38,719 bases of DNA from an archaeon (GTDB taxonomy: Archaea; AGJL01; Methanococci; Methanococcales; Methanocaldococcaceae): positions 1 to 38,719 of the forward strand of contig JAJRSC010000029.1 in NCBI GenBank assembly GCA_024278985.1, written 5' to 3'. Position numbers and translations under genes: made by a program. This document shows positions 1-38,719 of the stretch, one piece after another; the stretch's first letter is position 1; each line of letters opens with the position of its first letter. Below the pieces are notes generated by a model. The model ran no database searches. It saw only the letters and a list, made by a program, of their open reading frames with translations, and was not told the DNA's origin.

Positions 1-188
1 ACTTTAAATTTAGTTATGTCTTTATCAAACATAACATCTTTTTTAATGTCAAAGTTTTCCTCTTTATTCCCCTCTCCCCCACTACTATCATCAAACTCAT
101 TCTCATTATCTATATATTTTCCACTTAAATAGGTGTTATCCCTTAGAAGTTTGTCATGGATTTTTTTATTAGTAGTTATTTTTTTTTT
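1..188 (-). CDS. VWA-type chelatase subunit, N-terminal linker only (runs off window)
   Basis: The minus strand is open from the window edge up to the A-run that ends the upstream AAA+ chelatase gene. It encodes a hydrophilic, acidic stretch that includes [16 protein letters not shown], which resembles the low-complexity linker joining the AAA+ and VWA parts of ChlD/cobaltochelatase proteins. The frame has no ATG, GTG or TTG until an ATG at about positions 28-30. A -1 shift at the A10 run (179-188) would join it directly to the AAA+ gene. The VWA domain itself lies outside the window, so the identity is inferred from context. It could instead be a separate gene with a rare start codon. Confidence 0.5.
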
Positions 189-1189
189 AATTTATTTATT
201 GTATCCTCCAATTTTTCTTTGTCTAATTTTGGCTGTTCAAATGGTTTTCTTCTTAATCTATGAGGTAAAGCTAACTCCATGGCTTCCTTAACATCCTCTA
301 AAATAACCTCTTCTCTACCATTGTAAGCAGCTAAGGCCTTAGCAGTTCTTACAACTGTTATATCTGCTCTATGACTATGAATTCCTAACTCTATACAAAC
401 TCCAGATATTAATTCTAAGAGTTCATCACTTATTTTAACTTTTTCTAAAAGTTCTCTTGCTTTGATAATCTTCTCTCTTAATTCTTTTTGTTTCTCTTCA
501 AACTTCTTATAAAATTCTTCAGGATTTTTTTGGAATTCTTCAACTCTTTTTATTATCTCAACTCTATCCTTAACATTATTTATTCCCTCTACATCAACCA
601 TTAACCCAAATCTATCTAAAATTTGAGGTCTTAATTCACCTTCTTCTGGGTTCATTGTTCCAACTAATATAAATCTTGATGGGTGCTTAACTTTAATCCC
701 TTCTCTCTCTACAATATTCCAACCTGATGCAGCTACATCTAAAAGAATATCTACAATATGGTCATCTAATAAATTAACTTCATCAATATATAGAATATTT
801 CTATTTGCCTCTGCTAAAATTCCTGGTTCTAAAGCTTTTATACCTTCTTTTATTGCCTTTTCAATATCTAGAGTACCTACAACTCTATCCTCAGTAGCTC
901 CAATTGGTAAATTTACAACTTTCATTTTCTTTTTAATTATTTTTAGTTCTCCTTTCTCCTTTTTTTCTTTACATATATCACATAATTCATCTGGAGAACA
1001 GTTAAATGGGCAGTCAGTTACTTCTATCTCTGGAAGTAAATCAGCTAAAGCTCTTACAGTTGTAGATTTTGCTGTTCCTTTCTCTCCTCTTATTAGAACT
1101 CCTCCAATTTTTGGATTAATTGCATTTAAAATTAAAGCTTTTTTCATTTTTTCCTGTCCAACTATTGCAGTAAATGGATATATAATCAT
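176..1189 (-). CDS. Mg/Co-chelatase-type AAA+ ATPase (ChlI/BchI-like)
   Basis: This is a AAA+ ATPase of the ChlI/BchI family, the motor that drives metal insertion into tetrapyrroles. In methanogens this would serve cobalt or nickel tetrapyrroles rather than chlorophyll. Visible motifs are Walker [10 protein letters not shown] near residues 35-43, a four-Cys cluster (CPFNC, CDIC) near residues 60-73, Walker B ILYIDE followed by NLLDD, and the arginine-rich HSHRADI sensor region. I chose the third in-frame Met (ATG ending at 1189) because GAGGG lies at a normal distance before it; the first Met at 1195 abuts that site. The gene ends in LKKK-stop at a run of ten A residues, and an acidic linker continues in the -1 frame. 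Related archaeal proteins are often one AAA+/VWA fusion, so this may be the front part of a fused subunit. Confidence 0.85.
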
Positions 1190-11839: not shown

Positions 11840-12343
11840 ATGGACAAACCTATTCTAATAGATATTAAAGAAAGAAAACATAATTTAATAGACTTAGGTG
11901 AAAAAAAATTAAGAGATTTATATAATCTTAGAGTAAAAATGGAAATAATTAGAGATATTGGTGATGATAAAAAACTTGAAGAATTAGAGGAGAAAGAGTT
12001 AGATTTAGTTTATGATTTAAATAAAATAGATTTAGGAATTAAAACCCTCGAAGCTGCTGAGTATATTATAGAAAATAACATATTTGGAAAATACTGGGAA
12101 AAAATAGAGGAATCATTGGATACTGATAAATTGTTAGAAATATTTATAAAAAATGGATTAAATATAAAAAAATCTTGCTTAGAGTTGTATAATATGTTTA
12201 ATATTAATGATAAATCTATTTTAAAAAAAATTGAAAAATTGCCTGATGAAGAAAAATGTATGGGAGAATGTGACAATAAAATAACTGAAAATATTATTGA
12301 GAGATTAAAATCATTAAAAAATAAGCTAATGAAAGGTGAATAA
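11840..12343 (+). CDS. Hypothetical helical protein
   Basis: A 167-residue charged protein I do not recognise. It is predicted to be almost all helix, with a likely coiled coil between about residues 15 and 65 (LRDLYNLRVKMEIIRDIG, LEELEEKELDLVYDLNKID). Three cysteines occur, two of them close together in EEKCMGECDNK. There is no signal peptide or membrane segment. AGGGGAT precedes the ATG, and the stop lies 4 bp before the ileS start, so it belongs to the same unit. Confidence 0.75.
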   Translation: MDKPILIDIKERKHNLIDLGEKKLRDLYNLRVKMEIIRDIGDDKKLEELEEKELDLVYDLNKIDLGIKTLEAAEYIIENNIFGKYWEKIEESLDTDKLLEIFIKNGLNIKKSCLELYNMFNINDKSILKKIEKLPDEEKCMGECDNKITENIIERLKSLKNKLMKGE

Positions 12344-12347
12344 TGAC

Positions 12348-15300
12348 ATGGAAAGAGTAAAAAAAGTTAATTTTAGAGAATTAGATAAGAAAATAAAAGA
12401 ATTTTGGAAAAATAATAGAATTTATGAAAAAGTTAAAGAAAAAAATAAAGATAATAAAGAGTTTTATTTTGTTGATGGACCTCCATATTGTTCTGGGTCT
12501 ATACACTTAGGAACTGCCTGGAATAAAATAATTAAAGATACTTATTTAAGATTTAAAAGAATGCAGGGGTATAATGTATTAGATAAAGCTGGTTGGGACA
12601 TGCATGGCCTACCAATAGAGGTTAAAGTTGAGAAGGAACTGAACATAAAAACAAAAAAAGATATTGAAAAAATAGGAGTTGATAAATTTATAGAAAAATG
12701 TAAAGAGTTTGCTTTAAAACATAAGGAAATTATGGAAAATCAATTTAAAAATTTAGGTGTTTGGTTAGATTGGGACAATGCATATATGCCAATAACTAAG
12801 GAATATATGGAAACTGGTTGGTGGAGTTTAAAAGTAGCTCATGAGAAAGGACTATTAAAAAAAGACTTAAGAGTTGTCTATTGGTGTCCAAGGTGTGAAA
12901 CAGCTTTAGCTGAGCATGAAGTTAGGGGAGAGTACAAAGAAGTTGAAGACCCCTCTTTATATGTAAAATTTAAGTTAAAAGATGAGGATGCATATATAGT
13001 CATTTGGACAACTACTCCTTGGACATTGGTGGCAAACTTAGCAGTTGCAGTGCATCCAGATTATGATTATTGTTATGTTGAAGTTGAAAAAGAAAATAAA
13101 GAAGTTTGGATAATTGCTGAGAAATTAGTAGAAGATGTTTTAAAAAAGGCAAAAATTAAAAAATATAAAATCATAAAAAAAGTTAAAGGTAAAGAATTAG
13201 AAGGTAAGAGATATATTCATCCACTATTGGAAGAAGTTGAAAGACAAAAAGAGTTTGCTAAAGTTGCCCATTACATTGTTTTAGGAGAACATGTTACATT
13301 ATAAGGAGGTACTGGATTAGTTCATACAGCTCCAGGTCATGGAGAGGAAGATTTTGAAGTGGCTAAAAAGTATAATCTCCCTATTTATTGTCCAATTGAT
13401 GACCAAGGAAAATATACAGAGGGTAAGTGGAGAGGTATTTTTGTTAAAGATGCTGATGATTTAATTGTTAAGACATTAGAAGAAAAAGGTCTATTGGTTA
13501 ATTATGGTAGAATTAAGCATAGTTATCCTCACTGTTGGAGATGTAAAACACCTTTGTTATTTAGAGCAACAGAACAGTGGTTTTTAATTATCTCAAAAAT
13601 TAAGGATGAAATTATAGAGCAGGCAAAAACTGTTACATGGATTCCTGAATGGATTGAAACAAGATATATAAATGGTGTTAAGTTTGTTGGAGATTGGAAT
13701 ATAAGTAGGCAAAGATATTGGGGAATCCCTCTACCAGTATGGGTTTGTAAAAAGTGTGGAAAGTATATTGTTGTTGGAAGTGTTGAAGAACTTAAAGAGA
13801 GGGCTGTTGAAAATATTGAATTGGAGGATTTACATAAACCATATGTTGATAAAGTTAAGTTAAGATGTGAATGTTCTGGAATTATGGAAAGAGTTCCAGA
13901 TGTTTTAGATGTTTGGTTTGACTCTGGATTGGCACCATATGCATCAATAAATTCAAAAACATTAAAGAAAGCTGATTTTATTACTGAAGGACATGACCAA
14001 GTTACAAAATGGTTTTACTCTCAACATGCGCTCTCTGCTATAGTCTTTGGAGATGTGCCTTATAAGAAGTGTCTTACTCATGGCTTTACTTTGGATGAGA
14101 AAGGAGACAAGATGAGTAAAAGTTTGGGGAATATAGTTAGTCCTGATGATGTTGTTGAGAAATATGGGGCTGATATATTAAGGTTTTATTTACTATCTGC
14201 AAATAAGGTTTGGGAGGATTTAAGATTTGTATGGAGTGAAGTTGATGATGTATTAAGTCTATTTAATACCTTATGGAATGCCTATATGTTTGCAGTTAAT
14301 TATATGGTTTTAGATAATTTTCAACCAAATGATGATTATTTCAAATATCTAAGAGAAGAGGATAAGTGGATAATAAGTAGAGTTAATTCTTTAGCAAAAA
14401 AAGCAATTAAAAGTTTAGAAATTCCTCATTTCCATACTTATACATGGTCAATTAAAGACTTTATATTAAATGATTTGAGTAGGTGGTATATAAGATTAAT
14501 AAGGGATAGAACTTGGAAAGAAGGAGAAGATAGTGATAAGTTTGCTGTCTATCAAACACTATACTATACATTATTAAAATTGTCTAAAATTATTGCCCCA
14601 ATAGCACCATACACTGCTGAAGCAATATATCAAAATCTAAAAACTAAGGATTTGGAAGAAAGTATTTTTATGTATAATATTGATGTTGATGAGGAATTAA
14701 TAGATACTGAACTTGAAAAAGATATGGAAATTGTTAGAGATATTGTTGATGCCATTTATAGAGGAAGAGATAAGATAAAATATACATTAAGATATCCATT
14801 AAAAGAGATTGTAATATCTGGAAATGAAGAAGTAAAAAAGGCTGTTGATAGATTTGAGGAAATTATTAAAGAGCAGGGAAATGTTAAGATTATTAAATTT
14901 GGAGAAGTAGGAAACTATAAAATAAAGCCAAATTATAGAGAGTTGGGTAAGAGATACAAAAGTGAAGTTCCTAAAGTTGTTGAGATATTAAATAAAGTAG
15001 ATGCCAAAGAATTAATTAATGAACTAAATGAGAAAGGTAAGGCTATTATTGAGGGTTATGAGATTTTACCAAGTTATATAGATGTTAAAATTGAATTACC
15101 TGAAAATATTTCTGGAGTTGAATTTAGCAAAGGAACAGTATATATTAATGCTAAAATTGAAGAAGATTTAATAAAAGAGGGATTAATGAGAGAAGTTATT
15201 AGAAGAATACAGGCAATGAGAAAAGATTTAGATTTAGATATTGAAGAAAAAATAAAGGTTAAGGTTGAAGGAATTGACTTAAATGGATTTGAAAAAATTA

Positions 15301-15419
15301 TTGAGAGAGAAGTTAGAGGAACATTTGAGGATATTGAAGGAGAATATATAAAAGATTGGGAAATTAAAACTCCTGATGGAAGAAAATATAATATAAAAAT
15401 AAGAATTGAAAGAGCTTAA
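12348..15419 (+). pseudogene. ileS: Isoleucyl-tRNA synthetase with one in-frame TAA
   Basis: IleRS charges tRNA-Ile. The whole reading frame is 1023 codons plus the end stop, but codon 319 (13302-13304) is TAA. The first part has the class I SIHLG motif (residues 51-55), WDMHGLPIE, a zinc-type CPRC, and the editing-domain TTTPWTL. The second part resumes in the same frame at GGTGLVHTAPGHGEEDF and carries WFDSG, the KMSKS motif (14109-14123) and the anticodon-binding region. Family members have Glu-Glu or similar where TAA-GGA stands, so one G-to-T change in GAA explains it. ATG 12348 has SD GGTGA at 12335-12339. Options are sequence error, a recent nonsense mutation, readthrough, or a functional split enzyme. 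Both halves remain well conserved, which argues against long decay. Confidence 0.88.
13302..13310 (+). other. In-frame stop TAA within ileS followed by GGAGGT
   Basis: TAA at 13302-13304 is followed at once by GGAGGT, giving AAGGAGGT, a near-perfect SD. No ATG, GTG or TTG lies in the ileS frame at normal SD distance; the first is GTG at 13359, about 49 bp on. GGA-GGT encodes the expected Gly-Gly before the conserved TG..HTAPGHG block, so the SD match may be coincidental. Confidence 0.8.
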
Positions 15420-38318: not shown

Positions 38319-38719
38319 ATGGGTATAGAGAAATTAATAGAGTTAGCTAAAGAAATTAGAGATGAAAATCTTAGAGAGAAGGTTATTAATTTTATAAAAA
38401 ATCCTAAAGCTACACATCCAGAAATTAAAGAAACTGGTGTTAGTTTAGAAGAATCACCTGCAAGTATAAACTGGCATCATAGATATAGAGGAGGACTAAT
38501 TGAGCATACTGTAGCAGTTACAAAGTTAGCAATGAAAATGGCTAATGTTTTTGAAGATGTTTATGGGGTAAAAATAAATAAGGACTATGTGATAGCTGGA
38601 GCTTTACTCCATGATATTATGAAACCATATAATTATGTAAAAACAGAGGAAGGTTTTGACCATTATGATTTATTCAACTTAGACCATCTAACTCTTGCAG
38701 TTGCTGAACTATATAAAAG
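38319..38719 (+). CDS. HD-domain phosphohydrolase (partial, runs off window)
   Basis: The first 133 codons of an HD-superfamily metal-dependent phosphohydrolase. The metal-binding pattern is visible: HHRYRGGLIEHTVAVTKLA supplies the early His residues and GALLHDIMKPYNYV the HD pair. A helical N-terminus (GIEKLIELAKEIRDENLREK) precedes it. GAGGTG lies 8 nt before the ATG. No substrate can be named; related archaeal proteins are annotated as nucleotidases or uncharacterised. The remainder lies beyond the window. Confidence 0.85.
   Translation, partial: MGIEKLIELAKEIRDENLREKVINFIKNPKATHPEIKETGVSLEESPASINWHHRYRGGLIEHTVAVTKLAMKMANVFEDVYGVKINKDYVIAGALLHDIMKPYNYVKTEEGFDHYDLFNLDHLTLAVAELYK

Follow-up and report, generated by a model that had tools for sequence, protein, structure and literature searches.

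The window analysed here is the whole of contig C1 (38,719 nucleotides) of the draft genome G000, and its ileS gene, encoding isoleucyl-tRNA synthetase (IleRS), occupies one frame on the forward strand (12348..15419), running from the ATG at 12348 to the natural TAA at 15417-15419. Translation bears out the initial annotation in that this frame is nowhere shifted and has a single interruption, the in-frame TAA at codon 319 (13302..13304, forward strand), and the open-frame list accordingly shows the gene as two pieces, 12336-13304 and 13359-15419. The whole frame scores 1095.9 bits with the TIGR00392 profile against a cut-off of 621.4, covering positions 4-857 of 861 with the one stop inside, and as the two halves match consecutive profile positions (4-320, then 324-857), the earlier reading of both flanks as unshifted IleRS likewise stands. 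The upstream fragment (12348..13304, forward strand) is of 318 residues and, matching profile positions 4-320, holds the start of the catalytic domain, the HLGTAWN signature and the first part of the CP1 domain. Right behind the stop, translation and alignment place the conserved CP1 editing motif GGTGLVHTAPGHGEEDFE (13305..13358, forward strand), which by a start-codon scan falls outside any restarted fragment, and the downstream open frame, counted from its first in-frame start, a GTG (13359..15419, forward strand), carries the remaining CP1, the KMSKS region and the anticodon-binding domain.

A match above the ileS cut-off is found in 37 of 40 relatives, and none of these 37 has an internal stop. 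In all aligned Methanococcales, codon 319 reads GAG or GAA (Glu) or else GAT or GAC (Asp), and the simplest origin of the TAA is a single G>T change of GAA to TAA. The initial annotation had also raised the matter of a second ileS elsewhere in the genome; profile search found none in the G000 draft, which at 85.8% completeness could still lack an extra copy. The other matches to the profile in this draft are ValRS-like (contig C30), LeuRS-like (C3) and MetRS-like (C20), names that are suggested by score and place. Codons 510, 577, 734 and 741 of the gene (window positions 13875, 14076, 14547 and 14568) differ from all 29 aligned relatives, and at least two of these four need more than one base change.

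The draft itself is, to judge by its content, of the Methanocaldococcus type and comprises 1,106,849 bases in 30 contigs with 0.3% contamination. The best named matches to it are MAGs assigned to Methanocaldococcaceae and Methanococci, the IleRS tree places the window beside G002 and G010, two genomes of its genus, and no plasmid match was found. The 2,292 N of the draft equal the length of contig C8 (L132, C8:1-2292), which is seemingly N throughout. Many contig ends have exactly 141 bases in common, which suggests the trace of a de Bruijn assembly with k = 141. Several other ends overlap over 128-362 bases with 1-3 mismatches, and both ends of the window are of this kind, since positions 1..312 overlap the end of C4 with 3 mismatches, the stretch thus being present in two versions, and positions 38592..38719 overlap C28 with 1 mismatch. 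Such mismatched overlaps mean that some stretches stand in the assembly twice in differing form, possibly as strain variants or through errors. A repeat of about 160-370 bases, about 92-97% alike between copies, is furthermore found at many contig ends (C2:3-172, C3:50905-51144, C5:57915-58297, C6:28158-28374, C11:1-370, C18:49097-49445, C29:35181-35346 and C30:1-365) and probably broke the assembly there.

The whole draft was surveyed for stray stops against 1.2 Mb of the sister genome G002, whose 1,202 open frames were searched against G000; for 933 of these the best match reached 45% identity or more, giving 274,944 aligned residues, and frames of the rRNA region, weak flanks and extreme match ends were dropped from the count. 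About 40 single in-frame stops (26 TAA, 9 TAG and 5 TGA) were found in 39 conserved genes, so that like lesions are scattered over unrelated essential genes of the same draft, although a few lie near the end of the match (e.g. in AlaRS) and may be harmless, the fair range being 29 to 40. The genes carrying them include purD, purT, ilvD, a CheA, a helicase and those of uS2, uL5, GatA, RadA, FrhA, VhuA, FtsY, DNA ligase, aCPSF1, AlaRS, LysRS, TrpRS, RpoB'', PurA, a LeuA-type synthase, a SUI1-type initiation factor, prefoldin alpha and Csm3. The stop in ileS is therefore nothing special to IleRS, since some 40 stops genome-wide predict 0.15 in a gene of its length. Candidate frameshifts in conserved genes number 11 in G000 as compared with 4 in the reverse survey of G002, and the draft as a whole, with its isolated stops of mixed TAA, TAG and TGA type and heavy in G>T, appears to hold many base errors and needs careful handling.

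Run in the opposite direction, the survey of G002 returned 12 raw stops, which come from rRNA-region frames, the rRNA identity of which was confirmed, from antisense frames and from a single multicopy ATPase gene that has decayed; it found no isolated stop in any conserved single-copy gene of G002. Furthermore, searches of six families across the genus (IleRS, RpoB'', AlaRS, LysRS, uS2 and uL5) found an internal stop in G000 only. The stops are thus absent from independently assembled relatives, in these six families and, after the removals just mentioned, in the G002 survey, and fragmentation alone is not the cause, since the comparison took in three fragmented drafts (G003, G004 and G006) without such stops. 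Missense errors at invariant columns were sought as well, and their signal is swamped by natural divergence. RpoB'' (L260, G000 C19:40548-42032) deviates at 45 genus-invariant positions, as against 5 in G002 and 33 in G010, and many of the G000 deviations need two or three bases and look like real divergence rather than errors.

The distribution of the 40 stops across contigs fits chance (P = 0.50), and with 4 of them within 1 kb of contig ends, where 2.2 are expected, clustering there is not convincing. A one-step source can be named for 29 of the 40, namely G>T in 18, A>T in 4, C>T in 3, C>A in 2, and C>G and T>A in 1 each. Per opportunity this corresponds to rates of about 5.4e-4 for G>T, 3.8e-4 for C>A, 8e-4 for C>T and 1e-4 for A>T, and the like rates of G>T and C>A are as expected of a strandless artefact. 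Conventional sequencing has C>A/G>T and C>T/G>A as its main artefact types, oxidised and deaminated template being reported to leave G>T and C>A at like rates, plus C>T (PMC6337315). Stops from Glu codons exceed those from Lys codons (P = 0.001), and it should also be mentioned that GGA to TGA changes (2 in 10,974 codons) are rarer than GAA/GAG to TAA/TAG changes (16 in 22,629; P = 0.07), a shortfall that argues against pure G>T error, which would not predict it, and that the GC-to-AT bias of the stops also fits real mutation. The other 11 stops have no one-step source from the residue of the relative, and some of these may be genuine or fall at sites that vary. From the stop rates, the error load of the draft can be roughly estimated at 3e-4 wrong bases per position, or about 1 per 3 kb.

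The initial annotation had left four options for the TAA, an assembly error, a young nonsense mutation, readthrough or a tolerated split enzyme, and the assembly error is strongly supported by some 40 like lesions, many of them in indispensable genes, with a spectrum resembling that of error or damage; the split enzyme and readthrough find no support. A functional two-piece IleRS, assembled from residues 1-318 and a C-terminal piece made by restart in the manner of the two-subunit LeuRS of Aquifex, is made attractive by the position of the break in CP1 and by the in-frame GTG starting 55 bases past the stop with a purine-rich stretch ahead of it, but is nonetheless very improbable. Restarting at this GTG, the first in-frame start, would delete the conserved editing motif, no start codon overlaps the stop and no start was found that keeps the conserved motifs, every relative with a match above the cut-off has one unbroken IleRS frame, and the same kind of stop is found in 38 other genes. 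Scarcely to be credited either is a genome-wide readthrough or recoding of stop codons with TAA, among others, read as Glu. Glu sites do hold 17 of the 40 stops and the flanks of the stops stay conserved, but TAA, TAG and TGA are all among the stray stops and take the place of E, K, Q, S, G, L and other residues, so that no pattern of one stop for one residue emerges, and 40 sites per 275,000 residues are far too few for a reassigned codon. Furthermore, ordinary open frames end in all three stops (TAA 619, TGA 194, TAG 117), the aRF1 of G000 is intact, and an ARAGORN search of this incomplete genome turned up tRNA-Sec but none whose anticodon is TTA or CTA.

As for gene decay, dN downstream of the stop, measured to the outgroup L009, is 0.124 for G000 and 0.125 for the sister, with dN/dS at about 0.1, and a long-standing loss of ileS is ruled out by this near identity. 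Constraint behind the break is thus not relaxed, although a young break would show no relaxation either. The idea that ileS is dying and that a second copy, hidden in the 14% of the genome left unassembled, has taken over draws on the draft being only 85.8% complete, but no decay is seen downstream of the stop, the relatives have at most one match each above the ileS cut-off, and such a replacement would leave the other stops unexplained; we regard it as extremely improbable. Somewhat less far-fetched, though still unlikely, are real nonsense mutations in some chromosome copies or cells, of which the draft would have taken the minority alleles. Polyploidy of Methanocaldococcus could let an intact copy cover for a broken one (M. 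jannaschii carries 10-15 copies of its genome during exponential phase and 1-5 in stationary phase; PMC4502288), natural mutation is compatible with the GC-to-AT bias, and two alleles are visible at contig ends. However, some 40 recessive lethals in one consensus would be a very large burden, the majority allele is what a fairly deep consensus would give, and in the six families no tested relative in the genus carries a stop of this kind. That the stops are real in vivo, a nonsense load in essential genes with an 8-oxoguanine-like spectrum, masked by the intact copies of a polyploid heat-loving methanogen, seems to us quite improbable, but a masked load of this kind in a polyploid archaeon would, if true, be noteworthy.

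Most likely, therefore, the ileS stop is present in the assembled letters and not in the organism, and on comparison of the sequences we consider it very probable that the TAA is an uncorrected base-level error in a short-read draft. This explanation is favoured because about 40 isolated nonsense codons are spread at random over genes that could not all be broken at once, and because G>T, C>A and C>T are in excess among the changes behind them. In the living archaeon, codon 319 would then be a Glu codon of which the assembly gives the G as T, and the organism itself would make an ordinary one-chain IleRS; the cause may have been uncorrected read error, or oxidised or deaminated template, where coverage of the assembly was thin. 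A literature search found no report of stop-codon errors in MAGs or in genomes from single cells. Reading the stop as a probable base error guards against the tempting claim that an essential tRNA synthetase is split or recoded here, and at an estimated rate of about one wrong base per 3 kb no lone broken frame of G000 should count as biology.

In comparison with known systems, the gene is reminiscent of any other archaeal IleRS of Methanocaldococcus (TIGR00392), with all domains present and about 80% identity to its relatives in the genus both before and after the stop, and it differs by one TAA at codon 319 in the G000 draft only. The LeuRS of Aquifex consists of two subunits and is split within CP1, the domain in which the break in IleRS would also fall, but the resemblance goes no further, since this ileS has no start that keeps the editing motif, the relatives are unsplit and the same lesion is found in many unrelated genes. 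The stops are in better agreement with base errors in draft short-read assemblies, and although the cause is in G000 deduced rather than directly seen, they have in common with such errors that they are scattered single-base changes, often G>T, C>A or C>T, which fall in random genes, keep the frame and leave their neighbours intact.
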